DNA of 64,000 nucleotides from positions 558,001 to 622,000 of the forward strand of contig DASYBM010000004.1 in NCBI GenBank assembly GCA_036500765.1. Reading direction: 5' to 3'. Positions 4,680 to 18,253 of the stretch are shown one piece after another (positions within the stretch are counted from its first letter, which is position 1; every line of letters begins with the position of its first letter). Both the position numbers and the translations under genes were made by a program. Origin of the DNA: Candidatus Sulfotelmatobacter sp. (GTDB lineage Bacteria; Acidobacteriota; Terriglobia; Terriglobales; Acidobacteriaceae). The notes under the pieces are model-generated. The model searched no databases. It was not told the origin of the DNA and saw only the letters and a program-made list of their open reading frames with translations.

Positions 4680-6044
4680 ATGACCAAGTGGATGATCAAG
4701 GCAAGCCCCAGACTTCTGTTGATAGTTCTCTCGCTGCTTTCCGGCTTCTGCCGGGACGGCACGGGGCAAAGCGCACAGAAGCCGCTTTCGCAGATGCCGG
4801 CCTCGGCGCGGCAGTTGATCGCCATCAAGGTCACGGGAAGCAAACGCTTTCCGGAGGAGGCGATCGCGGCGGCGACCGGCTTGCAGATGGGCGCTCCGGT
4901 CAATGATGACGATTTCAAGAAGGCTTCGCGGCGCCTGGGCGACATGGGAGTCTTCACCGAGATTGCTTACACCTTCTCGTATTCCTCCGCGGGAACCAAA
5001 GTCGACTTTCATGTCACCGATGTCGATAAGTTTGTTCCGGCCCACTTTGAGGATTTCGTGTGGTTCTCCGACGCCGAGCTTTTGAAACGTATCAAAGAGC
5101 ATGCGCCGCTTTTCGACGGATCGCTGCCGCTATCGGGACGACTGGCCGACGAGGTTTCCGACGTTCTGCAGGCGATGCTGGTCGAGAATTCGATCCCTGG
5201 GCACGTTGAATATCAGCGCGCCGGTAAGCCGGACGGCCCCGTCGAGTCGATCAACTACCGCGTAACAGACGTTTTGATTCGAGTTCGAAAGATCGAATTT
5301 ATGGGCGCGGCGGAGGCTGAAGTGCCCGCACTCGAGGCGGCGGCAGAGAATCTACCTGACCACGAGTACTCGCGCACACGCCTGAATCTGCTGGTGCAGC
5401 GCCAACTACTGCCCGTCTACTACGCGCGAGGATATTTGAAGGCGCAATTCGGTGAGCCTGAACCCAAAGTCATAAAGCAGCCTGCTGCCGAAACCGAAGA
5501 CGGCCCGCGCAACCTGACGGTCGTCGATGTCGCTTTCGCGGTTACGCCCGGCCAGCAGTACAAAGTGAAAAGCGTAATGTGGTCGGGCAATCGCGAGTTC
5601 CCTACCGAAACATTGCAGAAAATGGTTCGCCTCGAGCCCGGGCAACCGGCCAATACGACCCGGCTGGCCGACAATTTGAAGGACGTCCAGAAGCTCTATG
5701 GATCGCGCGGGTACGTGACCGCCGCATTGAAGTCGGACGCGGACTTTGACGACTCTGCCGCAACCGTTGTGATTCGTATCGACGTGAACGAAGGCTACGT
5801 TTACCACATGGGCGACCTCGAATACCGGGGCCTCGATAACAGTCTGACCGCAAAGCTCCGCAATGCCTGGAAGATCCGTCCCGGGGATGTGTACGACTCG
5901 ACCTACCTCAGCGAGTATCTGCCCGCGGCTCAGAAACTCCTGCCTCCGGCTTTGGACTGGGAAGTCTCGCCGCACGTGACTGCGAACGTCCGTGACAAGA
6001 CGGTCGATGTGGATCTTATCTACTCAGTAAGGGCGCCGAAATAG
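4680..6044 (+). CDS. POTRA-repeat exported protein (BamA/TamA N-terminal-like, no barrel)
   Basis: A 454-residue protein with a hydrophobic signal segment (about 8-22) followed by several POTRA-like repeats. The first starts near 48 (IKVTGSKRFPEEAI). A later typical one starts near 300 (KVKSVMWSGNREFPTETLQ) and a last one near 385 (MGDLEYRGLDN). These resemble the periplasmic POTRA modules of BamA/TamA, which receive outer-membrane proteins. The protein ends without room for the roughly 300-residue beta-barrel of those families. It may be a soluble periplasmic partner or scaffold. It follows the LysR gene closely and may be co-transcribed. Confidence 0.7.
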   Translation: MTKWMIKASPRLLLIVLSLLSGFCRDGTGQSAQKPLSQMPASARQLIAIKVTGSKRFPEEAIAAATGLQMGAPVNDDDFKKASRRLGDMGVFTEIAYTFSYSSAGTKVDFHVTDVDKFVPAHFEDFVWFSDAELLKRIKEHAPLFDGSLPLSGRLADEVSDVLQAMLVENSIPGHVEYQRAGKPDGPVESINYRVTDVLIRVRKIEFMGAAEAEVPALEAAAENLPDHEYSRTRLNLLVQRQLLPVYYARGYLKAQFGEPEPKVIKQPAAETEDGPRNLTVVDVAFAVTPGQQYKVKSVMWSGNREFPTETLQKMVRLEPGQPANTTRLADNLKDVQKLYGSRGYVTAALKSDADFDDSAATVVIRIDVNEGYVYHMGDLEYRGLDNSLTAKLRNAWKIRPGDVYDSTYLSEYLPAAQKLLPPALDWEVSPHVTANVRDKTVDVDLIYSVRAPK

Positions 6045-6259: not shown

Positions 6260-6598
6260 ATGAAGTTTAGTTGGCGACGTTCGATCTTGATTGTGACGCT
6301 CTTGGGATGTATGTCCGCCGCGGCGCTGGCAGCGGGCAAGCAGACGCTGACCGGTGAAGTCGGCGACGCCATGTGTGGCGCGAAGCACATGGAAGGCACC
6401 GCTGCCGAGTGCACCCGCCTGTGCGTCTCGAAAGGCTCGAAGTACGCACTGGTCGTCGGCGACAAGATTTATGTGCTGAATACCAGCGACAAGGCTGTGC
6501 TGGCATTGCTCGATCAACAGGCCGGCAAGAAGGCCACGATCACCGGCACGGTGAACGGGACGGAAGTCGAAGTGAGCAAGGCCGTCGCCGCCAAGTAA
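6260..6598 (+). CDS. Small exported protein with conserved Cys residues
   Basis: The 112-residue product begins with a signal peptide (RSILIVTLLGCMSAAALAAG). The mature 87 or so residues contain three Cys (DAMCGAK, ECTRLCVSK) and a compact beta-rich part (YALVVGDKIYVLN, KATITGTVNGTEVEVSK) that looks like a small OB-type barrel. I do not recognise a named family. It is probably periplasmic with a possible disulfide or metal site. The gene stands alone and is followed by a terminator-like hairpin at 6705. Confidence 0.75.
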   Translation: MKFSWRRSILIVTLLGCMSAAALAAGKQTLTGEVGDAMCGAKHMEGTAAECTRLCVSKGSKYALVVGDKIYVLNTSDKAVLALLDQQAGKKATITGTVNGTEVEVSKAVAAK

Positions 6599-6832: not shown

Positions 6833-7390
6833 TTGGGCAAAGACATGGTTCCCAAGCGGATTTTCTTTACCAAGGGAGTGGGGAAACACCGCGAGCGGCT
6901 CACGTCATTCGAGTTGGCGTTGCGCGACGCCGGGATTGCCGCCCAGAATCTGGTGCGCGTTTCCTCCATCTTTCCGCCCAATTGCAAGCTGCTGGCCCGC
7001 AAGGAAGGGGTGAAGTATCTGCATCCCGGGGAAGTCGTTTTTGCCGTGGTCGCGGAGAACACCACGCGCGAGCCGCACCGGTTGCTGGCTTCGTCGATCG
7101 GGGTGGCCATCCCCGCCGATCGAAATACTTACGGTTATCTCAGCGAGCACCATTCTTTCGGCGAGACGGAAGACGCTGCCGGGGAATATGCCGAAGAACT
7201 CGCCGCCGAAATGCTGGCCACCACCCTCAACGTGGAATTCGATCCCGACCGTTCCTGGGATGAGAAAAAGCAGATCTACCGCCTGTCCAACAAAATTGTG
7301 CGCACGGCCAACGTCACCCAATCGGCGGTCGGCGACAAGCGCGCCCTCTGGACAACTGTGATTGCCTCGGCCGTGTTGATATTTGATTAG
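6833..7390 (+). CDS. pdaD: Pyruvoyl-dependent arginine decarboxylase
   Basis: This enzyme decarboxylates arginine to agmatine. The proenzyme self-cleaves to create a pyruvoyl cofactor. The motif [13 protein letters not shown] contains the processing site between Ser44 and Ser45, and [13 protein letters not shown] plus [10 protein letters not shown] are family hallmarks. [20 protein letters not shown] carries the catalytic acidic region. A TTG start at 6833 is preferred because GGAGG (6819-6823) lies 9 bases before it; the first ATG (6845) is too far from that site. The length of 185 is normal. The genes for the next two steps lie at 15018 and 16426. The stop codon lies in a triple 15-bp tandem repeat. 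Confidence 0.93.
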
Positions 7391-7429
7391 CGAGGCGGAG
7401 ATTAACGAGACGGAGATTAGCGAGACGGA
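7385..7429. repeat. 15-bp tandem repeat x3 across the pdaD stop
   Basis: Units GATTAGCGAGGCGGA (7385-7399), GATTAACGAGACGGA (7400-7414) and GATTAGCGAGACGGA (7415-7429) follow one another. The first contains the pdaD stop TAG (7388-7390). Because the unit is a multiple of three, the copies supply in-frame backup stops at 7403 and 7418. Confidence 0.9.
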
Positions 7430-7497
7430 CTTCCGAACTGCCGAACATACGGGTCGCCGAAGAATGTTTGCTCTTAACCTTGGCCGTGGCTAGACCC

Positions 7498-8648
7498 GTG
7501 GACCAATTCCAACAAACACGCCGGGGGGGGGGCAGCCCGTGCAATCATCGCCGCTCTCTATCTCGCGGCGCTGGCCCTGGTTTCGATCCACCTCTATCGC
7601 ACCCCCATCTATGACATGGATTCGATCCAATACATGGGGAACGCACTATTAATGGAGCAGACCGACCCGGTCCAGATTCATCAGCGGGTGTATTCCGAAT
7701 TGCGCCGGTCGGTACCGAGGGGTGCGCTTGAGCAGTTGCTCGGAAACGAGGCCGGCGCTCCGCCAGATCAAAACCGATCACGGCAGGAACGCGCCACAAA
7801 CCCCTACGGCTTTGCCGAATTTCTTCCGCTGTTCGCAATTCGGCCGCTGTACAACCAAACCCTCTATTTCGTGAGCAAGACGGGGATCGGATTGGTAAGA
7901 TCCGGAATTCTGATTTCGGTTGGATCGTATTTCTTACTTGGCGTATTGCTCTTCGCCTGGGTCCGCGACTATACAACGCCGCTGCTCAGTCTTTTGATCT
8001 GCCTCTTGAGCATGATGAGTCCCCCGCTGACCGCCCTGGGCCGAGACACGACGTCCGATGCCCTTGCCAGCCTGGTCGCGTTTGCCGCCTTGTACCTCCT
8101 CTTCGAGAAGCGATTACTGCTCCCCGGCATCGTCCTGCTTCTGTCATCGATTTACTTCCGCACGGACTTCATCGTTTTGGCGGGCCCGGCCATCCTGATC
8201 TGCTGGCTAGAGCGCCGCATACAATTTTGGCAAGCGGCGGTGCTCTCGATACTCGCGGTCGCCTCCGTGTTATGCATTGACCATTTCGCCGGGGATTACG
8301 GCATCAAAATGCTCTACTATCGCAATTTTGTCGGGACGCCGGTCGCGCCGGCAGAAATGGCCGTTCAGTTCTCAGCGCGGAACTACCTTGCCGCGTTCCG
8401 TTCAGGAATTACGAAGGTTTCGGAAAGCTTCTTCCTGCCTTTCCTGCTGCTCGGGACTATTGGGCTGAGATCGAGGCGGTCTCTGCCCCTGCTGGGAGTC
8501 GGCGGCCTACGTCGCGCTTCATTTCCTCATCTTGCCCAACTGGCAAGAGAGGTGGTTCGCGGTCTTTTATCTGTCCGCGGTCATAGCTGCGGTGTCGCTC
8601 AGAAAACTGCAAAAGAATGACGCGACTGCTGCTTGCGCACGGCCGTAA
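7498..8648 (+). pseudogene. Polytopic membrane protein (possible GT-C glycosyltransferase), two frame breaks
   Basis: The central frame (7616-8490) encodes several membrane helices (SVGSYFLLGVLLFAWV, LLSLLICLLSMM, VLSILAVASVLCI). Protein-like sequence continues in other frames on both sides. Upstream, the same frame as 7616 gives a hydrophobic helix (IIAALYLAALALVSIHLY) but no start codon; the only start, GTG 7498, is out of frame because of a ten-G tract at 7523-7532. Nine or twelve G would restore it. Downstream, after GGG at 8494-8496, a +1 shift gives AAYVALHFLILPNWQERW and a hydrophobic end to the TAA at 8646-8648. The layout resembles integral-membrane glycosyltransferases; the exact family is unknown. 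The breaks could be real, phase-variable or sequencing errors. Confidence 0.6.
7523..7532. repeat. Ten-G homopolymer at the 5' end of a membrane-protein gene
   Basis: Ten consecutive G between the GTG at 7498 and the first membrane helix. With nine or twelve G the GTG frame runs into the helix frame; with ten it does not. Such tracts are prone to slipped-strand mispairing and to sequencing error. Confidence 0.85.
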
Positions 8649-8683
8649 GCTGCTGGTGGTACTGCAATATCGAAATCTGGCGG

Positions 8684-8721
8684 CGCGACTAAGTTCATGA
8701 AACAACAGAATTAAATTAATC
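8684..8721. repeat. Left direct repeat flanking a methyltransferase gene
   Basis: This 38-base sequence starting CGCGACTAAGTTCATGAAA is repeated with few changes at 9689-9727. Conserved blocks are CGCGACTAAGTT, ATGAAA and AATTAAAT. It is AT-rich compared with the surroundings. Confidence 0.7.
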
Positions 8722-8877
8722 CCCACAGATTCTCTGAGGGCGTCGCATTGGAGTAATCAGGGGTGGCTTTGGCAAGATGGATTTTCAACAGGCACCCCCT
8801 GGTGTCCAGAGTTTGAATACTATAAATTCGAGTGAATTCACCGCAGTAATTGATACCAGGGAGGATCTCTTTAGGGA

Positions 8878-9585
8878 ATGCGCGACCTTCATCTTCTTGC
8901 TGGGCGGGGTCCCTATAAAGGAATTACCGAGTTCGTGAATCGCCGAATCTTCAACGAGCTCGGATTTGGTTCAGAAGACCGTTTTGTAGACATAGGATGC
9001 GGACACGGGCTGCTGTTGCAGTTAGCTATCGAAAGCGGGATTAAAACCGCCATCGGTCTGAACGCCACCGAAGAGGAAGTTCGCCCGTTACTCGCCCTGG
9101 GCCTTGATGTAAGGGTGGGTCGTACCGATTTGATTCCCTTGCCGGATTGCTCTGCGTCGGTTGTAGTTTGCAATTCCGTACTGCTGCTCGTTCCAGAAGA
9201 TAAGATGGCGAAAAGTTTGCGCGAAATAGCAAGAGTTTGTGAGCCGGGCGCACGCGTATGGCTTGGCGAGATACCTCGGATTCCGGAGATTACGAGCGTT
9301 CCCAGGCATGAGAGCATCCCGGAGATGCTCTGGTGGATACTCCGTAAGCGGGGCATTCGAAGCTTCGTTGGTATGTGCCGCCGCCTTCTGACCGGCGATC
9401 AGCGAGGTCCAGTTCTGGTGAATGACTGGGCGGCAATATTCTTCGCGGCGCCGGAAACCTTTATCAAGATGGCTGAACAAGCCGGTCTTCGGGTAGAGCG
9501 CCACTTTCCACATCAATCATTGGACCAGGGCGGGCGCCAATATTCCTCGGCAACCCGGCACGATTATCTTTTTCGTAGGGAATAA
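8878..9585 (+). CDS. SAM-dependent class I methyltransferase
   Basis: A 235-residue Rossmann-type methyltransferase. Motif I is FVDIGCGHGLLLQLA (about 37-51), which binds S-adenosylmethionine. The acidic position after beta-2 is replaced by GLNATEEE. Motif post-I/II is LPDCSASVVVCNSVLLLV, followed by EPGARVWLGEIPRI. A C-terminal cap segment is present. The substrate is unknown. The gene is isolated, is lower in GC than its neighbours, and is bracketed by two imperfect direct repeats (8684-8721 and 9689-9727), suggesting a transferred cassette. It may modify a surface glycan if linked with the broken membrane gene upstream, but that is a guess. Confidence 0.85.
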   Translation: MRDLHLLAGRGPYKGITEFVNRRIFNELGFGSEDRFVDIGCGHGLLLQLAIESGIKTAIGLNATEEEVRPLLALGLDVRVGRTDLIPLPDCSASVVVCNSVLLLVPEDKMAKSLREIARVCEPGARVWLGEIPRIPEITSVPRHESIPEMLWWILRKRGIRSFVGMCRRLLTGDQRGPVLVNDWAAIFFAAPETFIKMAEQAGLRVERHFPHQSLDQGGRQYSSATRHDYLFRRE

Positions 9586-9688
9586 TTTTGGTGTCGCGAA
9601 TCGCCGATAGCGCGAACATGTGACAAAGTGCGGGCGACCAGCGCTTGACCTGAGCGACTTGGCGATTGGGAAGAACCGAACTCTCGTG

Positions 9689-9727
9689 CGCGACTAAGTT
9701 TATGAAAGCAATACAATTAAATGAATC
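9689..9727. repeat. Right direct repeat flanking the methyltransferase gene
   Basis: A 39-base near copy of 8684-8721 in the same orientation, about 1 kb away: CGCGACTAAGTTTATGAAA, one extra G, then an AATTAAATGAATC end. Together the copies bracket the methyltransferase gene. Confidence 0.7.
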
Positions 9728-9815
9728 GTCGAGGCACGAATTCCATCTCATACAGATAATACTTTGGTAACTCTGCTTGAGACCCAATGTAATACTCCGT
9801 TAACAGGAATCGGTT

Positions 9816-10154
9816 ATGATTGTAGTGGTGGCAGAGGCACAAGAAAATAGATCGCAGATGACGGATCGAGGATTTGCAGTGGACATCGAAACCCGCAGAA
9901 AAAAGCAACAAACGCTCATGGTCAACCTGGTGGAGCGAAAGGTCCGGTCACGGGCCAAGCAGATCTATGAAACGCGTGGGCAGGGGGACGGCCAAGAGTT
10001 GCAGGATTGGTTCCAAGCTGAGTCGGAAGTGCTTGGAAACAGTATCCTTGCGCCTTTGTATAAGCGCATGCGAACGGGGCAGGAAACAGTCGTGAACGAG
10101 ACCCAGGCCTCAGATCTTTCCTCGCAGGACGACGCCTGCGAGGTTTCCGCGTAA
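9816..10154 (+). CDS. DUF2934 domain protein
   Basis: A 112-residue protein with a central DUF2934-type segment: RAKQIYETRG, then DGQELQDWFQAESEV at about residues 48-73. This short helical module is common in acidobacterial and proteobacterial proteins of unknown role. The flanks are charged and probably disordered. AGGA lies seven bases before the ATG. It converges with the DHS-like gene only 40 bases away. No function can be assigned. Confidence 0.75.
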   Translation: MIVVVAEAQENRSQMTDRGFAVDIETRRKKQQTLMVNLVERKVRSRAKQIYETRGQGDGQELQDWFQAESEVLGNSILAPLYKRMRTGQETVVNETQASDLSSQDDACEVSA

Positions 10155-10194
10155 GTGCTCTCTTGGTCTTCTACAGAAGCGGTCTGCATCAAGT

Positions 10195-11355
10195 CTACTT
10201 CCGCTTTGCCAGCTCCCTCTTCCCTTTTCTCGATCCCTTGTGGGCTTTGTCGAGACGTTCAATCACCGCGGCTACGATGATGGGCAGGCCGACAGTGGCG
10301 TCGACGAACACTTCTCCGAACCTTCCGCCTTCTGACGGCGGGACGAACTTGCCCCAGGAAATCGCCTCGCTGTAAGGGCTTCCTGACAATCCGCCCCAGT
10401 GAACTGGCTCAGGACAGATTCTGAGGCCATAGTGATAGCGTTTCAAGGGCACGTTCTCGCCGAGCCGCCTGTGCCGTAATTCACAGAAGGGACCAAACTG
10501 CTGCGACCAGTTGCGTGGAACGCCGCCCCCAATCGTGAAAATTCCCAGCTTCTTTTGCCGCAGCAGCGTCGCTGCAAAATGCTCCAGATCCTCAAAGGGA
10601 TCGAAGCGAATCTTGTGCCGGCCCGTGGACTCGCGCAGACGATTGTTCAACGCGGTATCGAGACCAAGTTCGGAGTCACTGAAGGCAGGCACGAACACTG
10701 GTACACCCTGCTCATAAGCCGATTTCAGAATTCCGCGCTGGTCCTTGTCGCGGTTCGCCAGATACGCGCCGATGGCATGATTCAGCTTGTAGGAGCACAT
10801 GATTTCATTGTGGTCCCAGGCCTCCAGTACGGCCGACATGACTTCCTCAACGTCATCCAGATTCTGCTCGGGTTCCAGCGTATCGTAGACGCGGTTGTAG
10901 CCTTGCTCGTAGAGTTCTTCGTCTGAGACATCGGGATTGGCGCGGAAATGCGACCGGCCCGTGGCCTCGACCAGACCGTGAGCCATGAGCGCGCCGGTCG
11001 AGACGATGGCATTCACGATGCCGCGGTCGATCAACTCGGTGACAATGAGTCCCTGCTTGGCCACCGTCATCGCGCCAGCCAGCGTCATCACGATAAAGGC
11101 ATCTTCGTCGAGCGCCATGGCTTCGAGCACATCGGCAGCCTCGCCGAGTTGGCGTCCAGTAAAGGCCGTCTTCGACATCGCTCGCACCAGGCCGTCGATC
11201 GAGGCGATCTTGCCAAGATCGAGCGGCTCCAGCGGGATCAATCGGTCTTCGATGGGATTGTGCAGGCTGCGGTCTTTGCCTTCGCCGCCCGCGGCATGTC
11301 CCTGCGACGGATGCGATTGGTCCTTCGTGTTGTTGGGATGATTCCCTGGTTTCAC
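10195..11355 (-). CDS. Deoxyhypusine synthase-like protein (possible homospermidine synthase)
   Basis: A 386-residue member of the DHS fold, started at a GTG with GGAGG six bases upstream. It has TLAGAMTVAKQGLIVTELIDRG and IVSTGALMAHGLVEATG (NAD-binding half), FTIGGGVPRNWSQQFGP, and EAISWGKFVPP with Lys336 at the position of the catalytic Lys of eukaryotic DHS. Bacteria have no eIF5A, so a protein target for true deoxyhypusine synthesis is not expected. Bacterial homologues of this family transfer an aminobutyl group from spermidine to small amines, such as putrescine to give homospermidine. The nearby putrescine genes fit a polyamine role. The exact reaction is inferred. Confidence 0.8.
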   Translation of the reverse strand: MKPGNHPNNTKDQSHPSQGHAAGGEGKDRSLHNPIEDRLIPLEPLDLGKIASIDGLVRAMSKTAFTGRQLGEAADVLEAMALDEDAFIVMTLAGAMTVAKQGLIVTELIDRGIVNAIVSTGALMAHGLVEATGRSHFRANPDVSDEELYEQGYNRVYDTLEPEQNLDDVEEVMSAVLEAWDHNEIMCSYKLNHAIGAYLANRDKDQRGILKSAYEQGVPVFVPAFSDSELGLDTALNNRLRESTGRHKIRFDPFEDLEHFAATLLRQKKLGIFTIGGGVPRNWSQQFGPFCELRHRRLGENVPLKRYHYGLRICPEPVHWGGLSGSPYSEAISWGKFVPPSEGGRFGEVFVDATVGLPIIVAAVIERLDKAHKGSRKGKRELAKRK

Positions 11356-11462
11356 CGCGAACCTCCAAGTGGGCCGTTATTATTTCCGACTCACTACTCT
11401 ACAAGAAGAGATAGCTTGGTGCCACGGGCACAACTTCCGAAGTAAGAAAATACAAAATCTTG

Positions 11463-11530
11463 AATCACGAAGACACGAAGAAAGGCCCGATCCTCCAGAC
11501 ATTCGTCTTACTTCATGTCCTTCGTGGTTT
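11463..11530. repeat. Imperfect inverted repeat (CACGAAG type)
   Basis: AATCACGAAGACACGAAG (11463-11480) and CTTCATGTCCTTCGTGGTTT (11511-11530) are imperfect reverse complements about 30 bases apart. This is an intergenic repeat type, not coding. Confidence 0.5.
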
Positions 11531-11551
11531 CAGATTTTGATCTTCTGAGAA

Positions 11552-11582
11552 AAAGCCCGGACCCACTCGGGGTCCGGGCTTT
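11552..11582 (-). terminator. Rho-independent terminator of the S53 peptidase gene
   Basis: GCCCGGACCC (11555-11564) pairs perfectly with GGGTCCGGGC (11570-11579) around a five-base loop. An AAA/TTT extension brackets the stem and a T run follows in minus-strand reading. It lies 48 bases after the stop of the peptidase gene. Confidence 0.9.
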
Positions 11583-11629
11583 CAGCGCTCGGTACGGAAA
11601 GCAGAGAACGGCGAAACCTTCCGCTGAGA

Positions 11630-13612
11630 CTAGTTGATGGTGACGGTAACTGTTGCGGTGTGCGTGTTGCCGCCACCGGTTCCGGTTATCGTGATGGTGC
11701 GAGTGCCGGTCTTGGCCGTCGGCGCCACCTTGACTTGCATGCCTGCCACGCCCGATCCCGGCGCTGCAATGGTGCTGGGGTTGAACGCCACAAGTACGCC
11801 TGCCCCTTGCCCGGTCGCCGTCAACGCAATCGCCGAATCAAAGCCGCCGGAGACGGCGGTGGTGATTCTGGATTTACCGCTGGAGCCCCGTGCCACGCTA
11901 ATCGCTGTGGGTGCTGCCGTGATAGTGAAGTCGCCCGCATTGACTGGCGCCAGCGCGTCGATCAGAGCCTGGCCGGTCGGGCTGCCCCATCCGGTTACGA
12001 GATCGAAGCCGACGGTAGCCGAAAAGCCGTTGCTGCCACTGGTGATGTCATGGAAATCAGTGTTGTAGCTCGAGCTCAAGCCAAGAGTGTAAAGGGCCGG
12101 GTTGACGAAGCCGAGCGTGGGTTGTCCATTCGCCACGGCCTGTTGATTGACGAGAGCCAGGAAGCCCGCCCACATGGGTGTGGCAAAGCTGGTTCCACCG
12201 TAGTTGTTGGCCGTGCAACTGGTTTGGTCGGCGCAAACGTAGAATGAGAAATCCGAGTTGGCCGAGATGTCCGGTCCGTTCCGCAGTGTTTGTGAACACT
12301 TGGTACAACCGGCCGCCGTGGCTACCTGCCAGGAGGGAATGGAGATGCTGTCGGTCGAAATACCGCCACCGCTATCCGACCAGCCCGTCTCCGAGGCCCA
12401 TGCGCCGCCGGCACCCGTGGTTTTTAAAGAGGTTCCACCCACGGAAGTAACGAGGCCGTCGTCTGAGGGCCACACAAAGCCGCCCGTCGCCCATTTGCCA
12501 TTGTCGCCAGCCGCATTGAAGAAGTTCTGACCCTGCGTCGCGAACTCCTGGAAGAAGGGCTCGTCGGTGCTGGCGTCAGCTGGTCTCCACAACCACGAAG
12601 CGCTCAACTGAGCGTTCAGTGGACTTGCAGTAGCCATGGCGTTAAGAATGCCGGCATCGTCGAGGGTTTGTCCCGACAAGCCGCCCTTTCCAATGTACAT
12701 CACGAGGCTGGAAAGACCGGGAGCCATGCCGATCGCCTGGGTCATGTCCAGAGTCTGTTCGGTGTCATCACAGCCGGACTTCTCCGTGCAGCTGGTGCTC
12801 TGGCCGTCCACAGATAGAAGGGTGATCGGCACGTTGTTGGTTTGGCCGACGTTCGTGAAGTACGTCGTCAGGTCAACCAGGTCGGTTCCAACGAACTCGA
12901 ACAGGCCCAGTGACTGGCCGGCGCCAGTGAGAGTCCCGTCAGTGTAGTAGGCTGCCCGCATATCGCTGCCGCAGAATGATTTCGAAGGGCAGGAACCGGT
13001 GGTGGCTCCAGACCTCACACCCGGATCGTTGGCATCGCGGCGAACCAATGCAGGCTTTGGAATCGAATAGTTGTCCAGGCCGCCAATGCTCCACAGGCGG
13101 ACCGACAAGTCCGGAGTGGGTTCGCGGTCAGGAGCAAAGAAAGTGCGGTGTTCGGTTGGATGCTGGTAGATACCGAAATTTACGTGCAGGGCCTTCTCAA
13201 TGTTTTCCACCGAACCGCTGACCGGCAGGATCATCCGATTGCGGGACGTGGCCTTGATCTGGAGCCCGTTGGCTCGCGCGAAAGCCTTCACGGCTTCATA
13301 ATCTTCGCGGCTGGGACCGTATTTTTCTGTGAACTGATCGACAGTGAGGAACTGGCGGTACGATGGGCTGGAAGGATCGTAAAGGTCCTTCAAAAAGTTT
13401 TCCAATTCGGCTTGGTTCTGATGCTGAAGAACGAGAACGATGCGCAGGGACTGGGTTGCGGGCAGGCGGCCTACCATGGGCGCAAGCCCGCTGGTGACCT
13501 CTTGCCGCGTGTGACGCGTCATTAGGGTCGGTGATTGCGCCTGACAGACCATACTTACGATCGATACAAGCGCAACGAGGGTCAGCAACGATGGACCGGA
13601 TCTACGTAGCAT
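11630..13612 (-). CDS. Secreted S53 (sedolisin/kumamolisin-type) serine-carboxyl peptidase
   Basis: A 660-residue acid-type endopeptidase. It has a signal peptide (about 1-26), a pro-kumamolisin activation domain (about 30-185: LYDPSSPSYRQFLT, FTEKYGPS), then the catalytic domain. The catalytic triad is visible as Glu285 and Asp289 in CDDTEQTLDM and Ser475 in GGTSFATPMW. Asp370 in AAGDNG is the oxyanion Asp. DFHDITSGSNG and VTGWGSPTG near 518-545 form the calcium site. An Ig/bacterial-type beta-sandwich of about 100 residues forms the C-terminus. It would act outside the cell on proteins at low pH. A Shine-Dalgarno (AAGGAG) precedes the ATG, and a strong terminator follows at 11552. Confidence 0.95.
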   Translation of the reverse strand: MLRRSGPSLLTLVALVSIVSMVCQAQSPTLMTRHTRQEVTSGLAPMVGRLPATQSLRIVLVLQHQNQAELENFLKDLYDPSSPSYRQFLTVDQFTEKYGPSREDYEAVKAFARANGLQIKATSRNRMILPVSGSVENIEKALHVNFGIYQHPTEHRTFFAPDREPTPDLSVRLWSIGGLDNYSIPKPALVRRDANDPGVRSGATTGSCPSKSFCGSDMRAAYYTDGTLTGAGQSLGLFEFVGTDLVDLTTYFTNVGQTNNVPITLLSVDGQSTSCTEKSGCDDTEQTLDMTQAIGMAPGLSSLVMYIGKGGLSGQTLDDAGILNAMATASPLNAQLSASWLWRPADASTDEPFFQEFATQGQNFFNAAGDNGKWATGGFVWPSDDGLVTSVGGTSLKTTGAGGAWASETGWSDSGGGISTDSISIPSWQVATAAGCTKCSQTLRNGPDISANSDFSFYVCADQTSCTANNYGGTSFATPMWAGFLALVNQQAVANGQPTLGFVNPALYTLGLSSSYNTDFHDITSGSNGFSATVGFDLVTGWGSPTGQALIDALAPVNAGDFTITAAPTAISVARGSSGKSRITTAVSGGFDSAIALTATGQGAGVLVAFNPSTIAAPGSGVAGMQVKVAPTAKTGTRTITITGTGGGNTHTATVTVTIN

Positions 13613-13933
13613 GTTTCTCCTTGGAATTTTTTGGTGTCAGTGATTTATCGTTTCGTTGACGGCTGGCGGCAGGTTCCTACCGTAACCCCCTACTCCCGCC
13701 CTGGGTGTCAGCCGGTGATCAAGAGTGGAATCTTGCTTCTCGCTTATCGCTTCAAGCGAGGGCACGAGTGTACACCCATAACCTCCGATGCAACGCGTGT
13801 AATTTTTGTAAACATTTGTGCAAGCGGCTTCGTGCACAAACATTGCAGAAAGTTGCGCACCCTCGAGCCGTGCGAGGCTTCCCGTTGATGGCTGAGCTGC
13901 ATCTCCGGCGCAGCATCGCGTTACACTGCGGTC
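13613..13933. other. Intergenic gap between divergent genes
   Basis: A 321-base stretch between the divergent peptidase and HEAT-repeat genes. It should hold both promoters. I see no RNA gene, repeat or convincing small reading frame in it. Confidence 0.5.
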
Positions 13934-14908
13934 ATGCCGGGCAAGCGCCAGTTTGAGCAACAACTGTCGAGTCTCGACGCGTTGCGTGAGCAGTCCGCGG
14001 ATGACCGTATTGATCCTCTGCGCAAAGCGCTGGCGCAACGCAACAACTTCATAGTCGCGAAGGCGGCCGATCTGGTGCGCGAATTCAAAATAGCGCAACT
14101 TCTGCCGGAACTTGAGAGCGCTTTCGCCCGGTTCTTTGACAATCCTGTAAAGACCGACCCGCAGTGCTGGGCTAAGAATGCCGTCAGCCGCACGCTGGCC
14201 GCTCTGGAACATCAGGAGGCGGAAGTTTTTCTTCGCGGCATGCGCCATATCCAGATGGAACCGGTGTGGGGCGGGCAATCGGATACGGCCGGAACTCTGC
14301 GTGCCATATGTGCGTTGGCGCTGGTGCAGTGCCGCAGTCTGAGCGAAGCGGACTTGCTCAAACACCTGCTTGACCTGATGGGCGACAAAGACAAGACCGT
14401 TCGAGTGGAGACGGCGCGGGCGATCGAGCAGGTTGGCTCCCGATCCGCGGCGCTGCTGCTGCGGTTACGGGCAGTGCTCGGAGCCGACGAGCCCGAAGTG
14501 CTGGGCGCCTGCTATGGAGGGATTTTGCGAATCGAGGGCGCGGGTGCGATTCCGTGGGTTCGTCGCTTCCTGGACGCAGGCGACGACAACTCTGCGGAAG
14601 CCGCGCTCGCCTTGGCTGGAACGCATTCCCCGGAGGCTTTCGAGGCGTTGCAGGAAGCATTGCCGAAGGCGCACGATCCGTGGTGGCGATCAGTATTGCT
14701 GTCGGCGATCTCGCTTACGCGCCAGGATGCGGCACTGGCGTTTCTGATGGAGTTGGTACGCGCTGACGCCCTCGACGCCGAGCCCGCGATCGAAGCCATC
14801 GTGCGGTCAATGCCATCCGAGGAGATTATTAAGGCGCTGCAAAAACTGGTTGCGGGCAACCCACGCCTGGCTCGCGCCTTTGCGGCGCAGCGGAGACAAT
14901 CGAAGTGA
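13934..14908 (+). CDS. HEAT-repeat protein
   Basis: A 324-residue all-helical protein built of HEAT-like units, for example ALAQRNNFIVAKAADLVREF near 35, LMGDKDKTVRVETARAIEQVG near 148, and ADEPEVLGACYGGILRIEG near 183. There is no signal peptide, so it is cytoplasmic. Such solenoids serve as binding scaffolds, and no catalytic residues are apparent. It precedes the agu genes by 109 bases containing a dispersed repeat, so co-transcription is possible but not shown. Confidence 0.75.
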   Translation: MPGKRQFEQQLSSLDALREQSADDRIDPLRKALAQRNNFIVAKAADLVREFKIAQLLPELESAFARFFDNPVKTDPQCWAKNAVSRTLAALEHQEAEVFLRGMRHIQMEPVWGGQSDTAGTLRAICALALVQCRSLSEADLLKHLLDLMGDKDKTVRVETARAIEQVGSRSAALLLRLRAVLGADEPEVLGACYGGILRIEGAGAIPWVRRFLDAGDDNSAEAALALAGTHSPEAFEALQEALPKAHDPWWRSVLLSAISLTRQDAALAFLMELVRADALDAEPAIEAIVRSMPSEEIIKALQKLVAGNPRLARAFAAQRRQSK

Positions 14909-14949
14909 TTGCCGGCGGCATCTTGCACGGGTGCAGTACGGTTCTGTTT

Positions 14950-14981
14950 AGCTGAAAGCTGGCGGCTGAGAGCAGACAGCT
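14950..14981. repeat. Dispersed repeat (AGCTGAAAGCTG family)
   Basis: An intergenic sequence related to 3655-3752 and 20006-20037, built of AGCTGA and GGCTGAGAGC words with an AGACAGCT end. It lies just before the ribosome site of aguB. Confidence 0.5.
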
Positions 14982-15017
14982 CCGCCTGCTATATTTGTTC
15001 GCGGAGGTCGGAAACGC

Positions 15018-15920
15018 GTGCCCCCTGAAAAGTTTCGCGTGGCGCTGGTGCAGATGTCGTGCGGGCCAGAGCCGGAACAGAATCTAGAGAAAGCGCTCGG
15101 CCGAGTCGCTGACGCAGCCGGCCGCGGGGCCCAAGTCGTGTGCCTGCCCGAGCTTTTTCAGACGCAGTACTTCTGCCAGCGTGAAGACCATTCGCTTTTC
15201 GATTTAGCCGAGCCGATCCCGGGGCCGAGTTCTGAGAAACTGTCTGCCGCGGCACGGGGTAATGGCGTGGTGCTGATTGCATCGCTCTTCGAGAAGCGGG
15301 CGGCCGGGGTCTATCACAACACGGCAGCGATTTTCGACCGCGACGGCTCGCTGCGCGGCCTTTATCGCAAGATGCATATTCCCGACGATCCCCTGTATTA
15401 CGAGAAGTTCTATTTCACGCCGGGGGATCTGGGATTCCGGGCGCTCGACACCAGCGCCGGACGACTGGGCACGCTGGTCTGCTGGGACCAGTGGTATCCC
15501 GAAGGCGCGCGGCTGACGGCATTGCAGGGCGCGCAGGTTTTGTTTTATCCCACTGCGATTGGATGGCATCCCGCGGAGAAAGCCGAATTTGGCGTGGCCC
15601 AGCATGATGCCTGGCGTACTATTCAGCGAGCTCACGCGATTGCCAACGGGGTTTATGTCGCGGTCGTGAACCGCGTTGGTTTTGAAACCGGCAATGTGCG
15701 CGGGAATTCGGCGCCCGGCCAGGGGCTTGAGTTCTGGGGCGGATCATTTTTCTGCGATCCCTTTGGGCGCGTGTTGGCGGAGGGCTCGCACGACCGCGAA
15801 GAGATCCTGGTCGGCGACGTTGATCTGAAAGCGCTGGAAGATATCCGGCGTAACTGGCCGTTCCTGCGCGACCGGCGGATTGACGCGTATGGCGGAATCG
15901 GGAGCCGGATGATCGATTGA
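15018..15920 (+). CDS. aguB: N-carbamoylputrescine amidohydrolase
   Basis: A 300-residue nitrilase-superfamily enzyme that hydrolyses N-carbamoylputrescine to putrescine, CO2 and ammonia. The catalytic triad is visible: Glu45 in LPELFQTQ, Lys118 in YRKMHIPDD and Cys155 in LVCWDQWYPE. QTQYFCQ, PLYYEKFYFTPG and AIGWHPAEK are typical of AguB rather than other nitrilases. A GTG start at 15018 is supported by GGAGG ten bases upstream. The stop nearly abuts a VOC-fold gene, and agmatine deiminase follows, so the three probably form one operon. Confidence 0.95.
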   Translation: MPPEKFRVALVQMSCGPEPEQNLEKALGRVADAAGRGAQVVCLPELFQTQYFCQREDHSLFDLAEPIPGPSSEKLSAAARGNGVVLIASLFEKRAAGVYHNTAAIFDRDGSLRGLYRKMHIPDDPLYYEKFYFTPGDLGFRALDTSAGRLGTLVCWDQWYPEGARLTALQGAQVLFYPTAIGWHPAEKAEFGVAQHDAWRTIQRAHAIANGVYVAVVNRVGFETGNVRGNSAPGQGLEFWGGSFFCDPFGRVLAEGSHDREEILVGDVDLKALEDIRRNWPFLRDRRIDAYGGIGSRMID

Positions 15921-15952
15921 CGCGAGAATCAGGCTATTCAGGAGCCCATGCC

Positions 15953-16372
15953 ATGACTCACGAAGCCGGTCGGACCATAACACGCCCTGTTCTCACTTCG
16001 ATCGCCGCACAATTATTCGTTGCCGACATCAAAGCGTCGTGCGATTTCTATACCGATAAGCTCGGCTTCACGGTCGACTTCGTCTATGGCGACCCGCCAT
16101 TCTATGGGCAGGTCACCCGCGACCACGCGCGGCTTGCTTTACGAGTGGTCGGGGAGTTCGTATTCGTCGGAGATATTCGAGAGCGCGAGCATCTGCTGTC
16201 CGCTTCACTCACGGTCGGTAGTGCGGACGAGATTAACCAACTTTTCTCGACTTACCAGGCGGCCGGAGTGCGCTTTCATCAGACCTTGAAGGAGGACACT
16301 TGGGGCGCCAGAACCTTCATCGTTGGGGACCTGGATGGAAACCTCATTCTCTTTGCCGGCCCGGCGGAATAA
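15953..16372 (+). CDS. VOC-superfamily (glyoxalase/bleomycin resistance-like) protein
   Basis: A 139-residue protein with the paired beta-alpha-beta-beta-beta VOC fold: AAQLFVADIKASCDFYTDKLGF at the start, ARLALRVVGEF in the middle and RTFIVGDLDGNLILFAGPAE at the end. It may bind a metal or a small molecule; the substrate is unknown. The ATG at 15953 is chosen because AGGAG lies eight bases upstream. A TTG at 15917 overlapping the aguB stop is the alternative. It sits between aguB and aguA, so a role near agmatine or putrescine metabolism is possible but not shown. Confidence 0.85.
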   Translation: MTHEAGRTITRPVLTSIAAQLFVADIKASCDFYTDKLGFTVDFVYGDPPFYGQVTRDHARLALRVVGEFVFVGDIREREHLLSASLTVGSADEINQLFSTYQAAGVRFHQTLKEDTWGARTFIVGDLDGNLILFAGPAE

Positions 16373-16425
16373 TGGACTCGTAGTTCAGCCTGATTCACGT
16401 CAACTCCAGAGGTGGTTGCGAAACT

Positions 16426-17550
16426 GTGAAATCCCGAATGAACCTGGCAGAGACACCGGCGGCACTCGGTCAGCGCATGCCGGCCGAGTGGGAGCCGCAT
16501 GCCGGGACCTGGCTGGCGTGGCCGCACTACCGCGGCGACTGGCCCGGGAAATTCGAGCCCATTCCATGGGTCTATGCCGACATCATCCGCAATCTGGCAA
16601 AGCATGAACGCGTGGAGTTGATCGTTAACGACGGGAATGCTGCCCGCCAGGCGCGAAAAGCTCTACGCCGAGCCGAGGCATTGTCGGGGAATGTGTATTT
16701 TCATCGTTGGCCTACGAACCGCGTATGGTTGCGGGACTCTGGCTGCATCTTCCTGACGGCGCAGCCGGGCGTTGCCCGGCCGGACAGTCCGGCGCGTCTG
16801 TCCCCACATGGCGCTCAAAGCTCCGAACCGTTTACCCTCAAGTTTCGCTTTAACGCGTGGGCGAAATATTCCAACTGGCGGCATGATGAAAAAATCGGCA
16901 GTCTGATGGCGAAGGCCGCGCATGCTCGCGAGATTCGACCGCTCGCCGCGGGCAATCGTATCGTTCTCGAAGGCGGCTCCATCGACGTCAACGGCGCAGG
17001 CACGATTTTGACTACTGAGGAGTGCCTGCTCAGCAAAGTACAGGAGCGCAATCCGCACATGGCGCGTGCCCACTACGAGAAGGCCTTTGCCGATTATCTG
17101 GGCGCGCCGAATACGATCTGGCTGGGACGCGGCATCTTCGGCGACGACACGCACGGTCACGTCGACGACCTCACGCGCTTCGTCTCAAAGAACACAGTCG
17201 TGACGATGGTGGAAAGAAATTCCAAAGACGTAAATCACGCTCCGCTGCAAGCCAATTTGCGCCGGCTACAGTCCGCGCGCGACCAGGACGGAAAACAACT
17301 CAACGTCGTTGAACTGCCCATGCCGCAGCCCGTCGTGTTTGAAAGCCGCCGTCTGCCCGCGAGCTACGCCAATTTTTATATTGCCAATGGAGTCGTGCTG
17401 GCGCCGGTGTTCAATCGGCCCAATGATCGCATCGCGCTGAACACGTTGGCCGAACTCTTCCCGACCCGCGAAATTGTTCCCATCTATTCGGGAGACTTCA
17501 TCTGGGGACTGGGCGCAATGCACTGCATGACACAACAACAGCCAATGTGA
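16426..17550 (+). CDS. aguA: Agmatine deiminase (agmatine iminohydrolase)
   Basis: A 374-residue guanidino-group-modifying enzyme that converts agmatine to N-carbamoylputrescine and ammonia. Hallmarks are MPAEWEPHAGTWLAWPH, the WLRDSG loop, LEGGSIDVNG, the DDTHGHVDDL motif with catalytic His/Asp, and the GAMHCMTQQQP end with the nucleophile Cys367. Substrate and product link pdaD (6833) and aguB (15018). It is third in the aguB-VOC-aguA run. A Pro/Ser-rich insert around 105-128 is unusual for the family. The stop lies within a 12-bp tandem duplication. Confidence 0.95.
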   Translation: MKSRMNLAETPAALGQRMPAEWEPHAGTWLAWPHYRGDWPGKFEPIPWVYADIIRNLAKHERVELIVNDGNAARQARKALRRAEALSGNVYFHRWPTNRVWLRDSGCIFLTAQPGVARPDSPARLSPHGAQSSEPFTLKFRFNAWAKYSNWRHDEKIGSLMAKAAHAREIRPLAAGNRIVLEGGSIDVNGAGTILTTEECLLSKVQERNPHMARAHYEKAFADYLGAPNTIWLGRGIFGDDTHGHVDDLTRFVSKNTVVTMVERNSKDVNHAPLQANLRRLQSARDQDGKQLNVVELPMPQPVVFESRRLPASYANFYIANGVVLAPVFNRPNDRIALNTLAELFPTREIVPIYSGDFIWGLGAMHCMTQQQPM

Positions 17551-17649: not shown

Positions 17650-17671
17650 CGGCCCCGTCACGCCTGCGTCT

Positions 17672-18253
17672 CTACATCGAGGGCGGAACCCCGCCTCCCG
17701 GGGGCGGAGTCGATGGCGGGCATTGTGTACCCGCAGACGCTCCAGGATTCGTCTGCGATGGGCTTCCCGGCGTTGTCGCATTCGGGTTGCCTGGATTGGC
17801 TCCGCTTGCGGCTGGATTCGTCGGTGTTGGATTCGTCGATCCTTGATTTGCGGTTCCTTGATTTGCGGTTCCTTGATTCATCGATCCTTGATTGGATGAT
17901 CCTTGCATTGTTGAACCCGCGTTGGGGACCGCTCCGCCCGGTGCGTTCTGTGCGGTCACGCATGTAGTTCCAGCCGGCGGATTTGTCGGCTGCGTACCCG
18001 GCACGCCCTGAGTCGGCGAGGCGGTCGTAGGTTGGGAAGTTGGCGGCGAGCTTTGCGTACCCTGCCCCGCTGCCTTCGTCGTTATAGGCGTGGGAGGACC
18101 GATCGCGCTAGCCGGCGGCGTAGTCGCAGTACCGGTTGGGGGAGCTGCGTTAGGTGTGGAAGTCTGGCCTGCGCCCGTGGTTCTGCTCTGGGCGATCATT
18201 CCAGTCGTACAGCATAGAAGACCGAGTATTATCGTGATTCGTAATGACGTCAT
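17672..18253 (-). CDS. Exported low-complexity Pro/Thr/Gly/Asn-rich protein
   Basis: A 193-residue protein with a signal peptide (about 1-21, TIILGLLCCTTGMIAQS) and a mature part almost entirely of Pro, Thr, Ser, Gly, Ala, Asn and Gln. A pentapeptide repeat NQG(S/T)x runs near residues 118-138 and is encoded by 15-bp tandem repeats at 17841-17900. Two Cys lie in the tail. It looks like a disordered surface or cell-wall protein. Its function is unknown, and the repeats are expected to vary in number between strains. Confidence 0.6.
   Translation of the reverse strand: MTSLRITIILGLLCCTTGMIAQSRTTGAGQTSTPNAAPPTGTATTPPASAIGPPTPITTKAAGQGTQSSPPTSQPTTASPTQGVPGTQPTNPPAGTTCVTAQNAPGGAVPNAGSTMQGSSNQGSMNQGTANQGTANQGSTNPTPTNPAASGANPGNPNATTPGSPSQTNPGASAGTQCPPSTPPPGGGVPPSM
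17841..17900. repeat. 15-bp tandem repeats encoding NQGTx
   Basis: Four 15-base units each starting CCTTGATT: two are identical (17841-17855, 17856-17870) and two are diverged (17871-17885, 17886-17900). In minus-strand reading they encode the Asn-Gln-Gly-Thr/Ser-x pentapeptide. Confidence 0.85.

Follow-up and report, generated by a model that had tools for sequence, protein, structure and literature searches.

SpeY, an enzyme of the deoxyhypusine synthase (DHS) fold, converts putrescine to homospermidine and, according to an extract of its description, takes no part in forming deoxyhypusine (PMC9992855). The same extract describes a Pelagibacter cluster of a decarboxylase, an agmatine deiminase, an N-carbamoylputrescine amidohydrolase and DHS/SpeY, and an extract of a second paper reports that SpeD-derived pyruvoyl arginine decarboxylases cluster with speY, one archaeon also having a fused aguA-aguB (PMC10407285). 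In Thermus, CdmS, which has the same fold, joins two agmatines to form caldomycin, and a ureohydrolase then yields homospermidine (PMC10981699, in extract); a route from arginine to homospermidine has been proposed for Zymomonas mobilis, in which sym-homospermidine is the major polyamine (PMC8594446, in extract). Here we describe a locus of related content in a stretch of 64,000 nucleotides, hereafter the window, which is part of the 5.04-Mb genome of Candidatus Sulfotelmatobacter sp. (assembly GCA_036500765.1, contig DASYBM010000004.1, positions 558,001 to 622,000). Within positions 6845-17550 lie pdaD, for a pyruvoyl-dependent arginine decarboxylase (PvlArgDC), a gene for a DHS-fold protein with its lysine at residue 336 (Lys336), aguB and aguA (Table 1).

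We consider it probable that the locus encodes a pathway from arginine to homospermidine, in which the DHS-fold enzyme would join two putrescines by NAD-dependent aminobutyl transfer. PdaD would decarboxylate arginine to agmatine with a pyruvoyl group of its own making, AguA would take ammonia off agmatine to leave N-carbamoylputrescine, and AguB would hydrolyse this to putrescine; the DHS-fold enzyme, with bound NAD, would then oxidise one putrescine, keep its aminobutyl group bound to Lys336 as an imine and pass it to a second putrescine, and reduction would give homospermidine. Every reaction in this scheme, like the choice of putrescine as substrate, is one that we infer. By analogy, the pathway would work like the SpeY-type route from arginine to homospermidine, furnished with an archaeal-type (PF01862) pyruvoyl decarboxylase, and its DHS-fold enzyme would work like SpeY but on a separate branch. 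The original prediction had suggested a homospermidine-type transfer on putrescine or agmatine; the homospermidine type is also our best reading, with putrescine the more likely substrate by residue comparisons and agmatine the less likely one.

The gene set resembles the SpeY clusters of Pelagibacter and of the archaeon with fused aguA-aguB, in which the gene likewise stands beside an arginine decarboxylase, aguA and aguB, but its decarboxylase is of the PF01862 kind, whereas those of SpeY clusters, as far as the extracts go, are of the pyridoxal phosphate (PLP) or SpeD-derived kind. The extract on Z. mobilis lists an arginine decarboxylase, an agmatine deiminase, an N-carbamoylputrescine amidase and a DHS-like enzyme, as here, but with a PLP decarboxylase and with the genes in two operons; a plasmid relative from Sphingomonas, of the same order as Z. 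mobilis, is CdmS-like and does not belong to the class of our enzyme. Where Thermus is described as using a ureohydrolase, this locus has a deiminase and an amidase. Since enzymes of both kinds and such gene sets have been described before, the general idea behind the original prediction is less new than it seemed; what is new here is the enzyme clade, apparently an untested branch of the DHS fold. A literature search that lacked most subscription journals found no tested member of this clade, nothing on homospermidine in Terriglobus and, by title, nothing on homospermidine and polyamines in Acidobacteria, and with that limit it is weak evidence of novelty.

The principal observation in favour of a common pathway is that the four genes keep company in relatives. 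The enzyme belongs to a large group of soil-bacterium genes (its own class, below), with 431 stretches matching the DHS-fold protein; the best 80 of these 431, our named loci, all carry acidobacterial titles, and the nearest among them, whose DHS-fold proteins share 90-92% identity with ours, come from metagenome genomes under the titles Acidobacteriaceae bacterium and Candidatus Sulfotelmatobacter sp. In 36 of the named loci the DHS-fold gene is flanked by 8 kb or more on either side, and 34 of these have pdaD, aguB and aguA together beside it; across all 80, cut contigs included, the figure is 52 (pdaD 67, aguB 72, aguA 62). A first set of 25 own-class genomes, which partly shares genomes with the 80-locus set and covers stretches of 7-20 kb around the DHS-fold gene, showed aguB in 22 genomes, aguA in 21 and pdaD in 18, with the full trio in 15. 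The DHS-fold gene stands between pdaD and aguB wherever these three genes occur (16/16 loci of the first set, 61/61 of the second), with aguB on the opposite strand in 72/72 loci and pdaD in 66/67. The four genes are therefore a conserved locus in related Acidobacteriota and not chance neighbours, which rules out the alternative of scattered, unrelated genes. Here we depart from the original prediction, which called the pathway scattered: the locus looks so because intervening genes spread it (an unassigned gene at 7616-8620 and those for a methyltransferase, a DUF2934 protein, a pro-kumamolisin protein, a HEAT-repeat protein and a glyoxalase-type protein).

Pfam searches bear out, with small corrections, the earlier claim that all four genes lie within 11 kb. 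PdaD is the only one of the four proteins to clear a curated NCBIfam cut-off, with 117.6 bits against TIGR00286 (cut-off 106.95) and a near miss on a second PvlArgDC model, PRK12398 (198.4 against 207); the DHS-fold protein, AguB and AguA match the expected models below all cut-offs. The Ser-Ser pair of PdaD at residues 40-41, in the motif VRVSS, we take from the family to be the point of self-cleavage. AguB matches a plant N-carbamoylputrescine amidohydrolase (5h8i, E 1.2e-62); AguA passes the threshold of the wider family PF04371, and its best PDB match is 1xkn, followed by a plant agmatine iminohydrolase (1vkp).

The DHS-fold protein, 386 residues long from a GTG start, scores 260 bits against PF01916 (gathering threshold 27). 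All 50 PDB matches listed by Foldseek for its AlphaFold model are deoxyhypusine synthases (TM-score by target 0.64-0.76), the model coming from a narrow alignment with a mean pLDDT of 73.5 and being poor at residues 1-33 and 321-334. The lysine of its SWGK motif is indeed residue 336, as had been predicted, and is invariant among the 15 own-class proteins aligned; the equivalents of human Trp327 and Glu323 are also kept. Fold and catalytic lysine together could suit protein modification, with some bacterial protein, for instance elongation factor P (EF-P), being aminobutylated in the manner of hypusine. This we regard as very improbable: the partners in the locus are small-molecule enzymes, human His288 is replaced by Asn, and the protein falls below the cut-off of every model for true deoxyhypusine synthases (bits/cut-off: TIGR00321 180/304, PRK00805 248/434, PRK02301 209/364, PRK01221 119/350, PRK03971 89/380). 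Its identity to three deoxyhypusine synthase chains is 22-26%; with the enzymes of eukaryotes and archaea it shares the fold, the lysine and the Trp327 and Glu323 equivalents, but its class has Asn, Leu and Leu for human His288, Asp243 and Asp316. A true deoxyhypusine synthase was rejected on the missed cut-offs, the Asn and the tree described below. The earlier view that an enzyme of this sort need not modify eIF5A in a bacterium is in line with the extract of PMC9992855. Bacterial DHS-fold genes are often annotated as deoxyhypusine synthase, for example on plasmids, and for our protein that name is most likely wrong.

In a tree of 42 proteins, the own class forms a clade (100/100) on a stem of 3.4 changes per site, the other groups being CdmS-like (99/99), SpeY-family (84/83) and true DHS (100/100); the branching order between clades is not settled, long branches having drawn a warning from the program. 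Thermus CdmS and Anabaena SpeY are represented by stand-ins over the NCBIfam cut-offs, namely two CdmS-like proteins that were scanned and SpeY-family proteins. Identity to two aligned SpeY-family proteins is 28-29%. The CdmS model (PRK02492, also for BGAN synthase) is missed at 197 bits against a cut-off of 500. Membership of SpeY or CdmS by profile was accordingly rejected, both cut-offs being missed and the protein lying outside both clades.

A survey of 120 genomes of the order places this enzyme among several classes of the fold. PF01916 matches occur in 118 of the 120, exactly one in 117 and two partial ones in the other, and divide into 62 CdmS-like, 26 own class, 13 f2 and 17 c/d, class sizes that were set by score and kinship, with 71 of the 118 checked by alignment (30/62, 26/26, 5/13 and 10/17, respectively). 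Five divergent classes, with about 18-42% identity between class representatives, stand in for one another across a single bacterial order. A lone DHS-fold gene in each genome (117/118), drawn from several classes, is what one would expect were all of them to perform the same task. All 26 own-class genomes have AguA (PF04371), pdaD and a ureohydrolase-family match, which occur in 115, 71 and 74 of the 120, respectively; SpeD occurs in six. The AguB model TIGR03381 matches in all 120 genomes, never over its cut-off, and also in 12 of 14 control genomes, so that this count says little. Across the phylum, DHS-fold matches were found in 189 of 247 genomes, 57 of the 247 exceeding the SpeY-model cut-off. 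The order amounts to a natural experiment on how distant branches of a single fold take over one polyamine step, and on whether guanidino removal precedes or follows coupling.

This one-for-one replacement across the order bears on another possibility, that the enzyme transfers the aminobutyl group of putrescine to some other small-molecule acceptor. The long separate branch would be compatible with such a role, as would residues particular to the class, such as Glu229 in the motif DSELG (invariant in 15/15 own-class proteins). Besides the replacement of other classes, the neighbourhood also speaks against it: none of 14 counted neighbours matches pdaD, aguB or aguA in frequency among the 80 loci, the next being the 6260-6598 gene (48) and a BamA-like gene (45). 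We therefore think a different acceptor improbable.

Genomes of other classes also suggest how the locus was assembled. Compared by eye on their coordinates, pdaD and aguB matches are separated by at most 2.1 kb in 18/18 CdmS-like genomes that have pdaD and by at most 0.25 kb in 12/12 such c/d genomes, and aguA lies within 10 kb of the DHS-fold gene in 1/62 CdmS-like genomes, against 21/25 own-class relatives with aguA in the stretch around it. In the f2 class, pdaD and aguB are on separate contigs in all 10 genomes with a strong AguB match. Because other-class genomes can have pdaD and aguB side by side without the DHS-fold gene between them, the own-class gene looks to have been inserted, on the opposite strand, into a pre-existing set of pdaD, aguB and aguA.

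The pocket residues bear on whether putrescine or agmatine is the substrate. Spacing served to map the published numbering of CdmS: a single constant offset places Ser67, Glu136, Asp143 and Phe204 in each of three CdmS-like proteins, and Lys299 fits this offset in the Trichormus protein but not in the other two. According to the extract of PMC10981699, Ser67 is modelled as a contact of the donor guanidyl group, and Glu136 and Asp143 as contacts of the second. At the Ser67 position the own class has Ala95 (15/15), as do the SpeY-family rows seen; at Asp143 it has Glu170 (Asp in two SpeY-family rows), and at Phe204 it has Leu232 (Met in the SpeY family). Human His288 is Asn in 26/26 own-class proteins and also in the CdmS-like, f2 and SpeY-family proteins. 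With SpeY, therefore, the enzyme shares the fold, the catalytic lysine, this Asn and the Ala; with CdmS it shares the fold, the lysine, Glu at Glu293 and, as f2, c and d rows also do, at Glu136, Leu at Leu286 and an acid at Asp143, but not Ser67 or Phe204. By alignment the pocket is mixed, its donor side SpeY-like (Ala) and its acceptor side CdmS-like (Glu), and its residues favour putrescine on the donor side but do not decide between the two compounds as acceptor. This division would allow a mixed coupling of putrescine with agmatine. Human Asp243 and Asp316, which are Leu and Leu in the own class, Phe and Leu in CdmS-like proteins and Met and Leu in the SpeY family (Leu at Asp316 also in archaeal chains 8put, 7cmc and L078), were considered as a test of agmatine against putrescine and rejected, all three groups being hydrophobic there.

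The agmatine route would have the enzyme couple two agmatines, or transfer an aminobutyl group from putrescine to agmatine, after which AguA and AguB (or agmatinase) would remove the guanidino groups to give homospermidine. Thermus CdmS, in the extract of PMC10981699, performs such a coupling with the same fold; Glu163 and Glu170 stand where CdmS has the modelled binders of the second guanidyl, and Leu at the Phe204 and Leu286 positions preserves the switch to hydrophobic residues seen relative to human Asp243 and Asp316. Moreover, 44 of the order's 62 CdmS-like genomes have AguA but gave no match to the ureohydrolase family, so that if the CdmS-like enzymes of these genomes make caldomycin, AguA and AguB would have to remove its guanidino groups. 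Yet Ser67 is uniformly Ala in the own class, the enzyme is below the CdmS-model cut-off and outside the CdmS-like clade, the Asp243 and Asp316 changes are common to the SpeY family, and Glu at the Glu136 position is seen in f2, c and d rows too and is no mark of CdmS alone. On balance we find the agmatine route unlikely, if worth keeping in mind, and give the same low credence to the enzyme being a guanidino-polyamine synthase, of agmatine with agmatine or putrescine with agmatine, with AguA and AguB acting on the long product. Were that true, coupling would precede guanidino removal, and AguA and AguB would be enzymes of guanidino-polyamines and not of agmatine.

Several points weigh against the route through two putrescines that we prefer. 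The enzyme misses the SpeY model PRK00770 (180 bits against a cut-off of 450) and lies outside the SpeY clade in the tree; it has Glu163 at the Glu136 position, where two SpeY-family proteins have Tyr, and the Ala at Ser67 is found in class c as well and so is no mark of SpeY alone. AguB reaches 286 bits against the N-carbamoylputrescine amidase model TIGR03381 (cut-off 410), and AguA 239 (TIGR03380) and 255 bits against agmatine deiminase models with cut-offs of 382 and 483. The genome has an agmatinase, a second possible way to putrescine, so that AguA and AguB may not be the sole one. Finally, the literature search found no polyamine measurement for the own-class group.

The absence of spermidine genes, first noted around the locus, extends genome-wide as far as tested (SpeD, PF02784, PF03435 and PF01564 searches). 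SpeD (PF02675) has no match in the genome, which implies that there is no aminopropyl route; PF03435 has none over its cut-off; the sole PF02784 decarboxylase is LysA-like (a partial match was scanned, 266 bits against 298); and PF01564 gives two matches (40.6 and 24 bits) in frames of 710 and 824 residues, the first, which was the one scanned, being far below the speE cut-off. The prediction of a pyruvoyl and not a PLP arginine decarboxylase holds as well, in that searches with PF01862, PF02784 and PF02675, PF01276 not being searched, found no other arginine decarboxylase in the genome. One arginase and one agmatinase, both over their cut-offs, lie on other contigs, and the agmatinase, being present elsewhere in the genome, is compatible with both the putrescine and the agmatine route. 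A second AguB-like amidase is found at G000:C4:1964338-1965114 (254.7 bits to TIGR03381, below the cut-off), with similar second copies in several relatives.

Table 1. The polyamine locus and its key codons, in positions of the window.
Feature	Position	Strand	Evidence
pdaD, pyruvoyl-dependent arginine decarboxylase (arginine to agmatine)	6845-7390	+	PF01862 E 1.1e-59; TIGR00286 cut-off passed; PDB matches 1n2m, 2qqd
Ser40-Ser41 of pdaD, expected self-cleavage site yielding the pyruvoyl group	6962-6967	+	Sequence; alignment with PvlArgDC of 1n2m
DHS-fold aminobutyl transferase of its own class, probable homospermidine synthase	10195-11355	-	PF01916 E 2.9e-77; AlphaFold model and Foldseek; separate clade
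Codon of Lys336, equivalent of the imine-forming lysine	10348-10350	-	Alignment: human Lys329, CdmS Lys299
aguB, probable N-carbamoylputrescine amidase	15018-15920	+	PF00795 (CN_hydrolase) E 1.6e-61; TIGR03381 best model, below cut-off; 5h8i
aguA, probable agmatine deiminase	16426-17550	+	PF04371 (PAD_porph) E 7.6e-112; PDB matches; GxGxxHC motif retained

Some further observations concern the other DHS-fold classes. Class c proteins carry Asp in place of human His288 and are without the PKN motif (GGGIAGD), with the catalytic lysine kept. A CdmS-like gene is carried on plasmids of Trichormus variabilis, Nostoc edaphicum and Nostoc linckia behind an aminotransferase gene that bears the annotation rocD on two of the three, with iron or siderophore uptake genes nearby in two of the three. 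A search for viral-contig relatives of a CdmS-like protein found none, and plasmid relatives of class d amount to one Sphingomonas record.

The neighbours of the four genes are less constant. Upstream of pdaD are the two next in frequency, a 454-residue protein at 4680-6044, labelled BamA-like by eye, and a 112-residue protein at 6260-6598. The gene at 11630-13612, for a pro-kumamolisin-domain protein, directly adjoins the DHS-fold gene and would be a late insertion, since only 4/80 named loci have it. A HEAT-repeat protein is encoded near the DHS-fold gene at 13934-14908 and is present in 20/80 named loci; deoxyhypusine hydroxylase is likewise made of HEAT repeats. Right after aguA, positions 17658-18253 hold short repeated words in overlapping frames, probably intergenic repeats together with a low-complexity protein.

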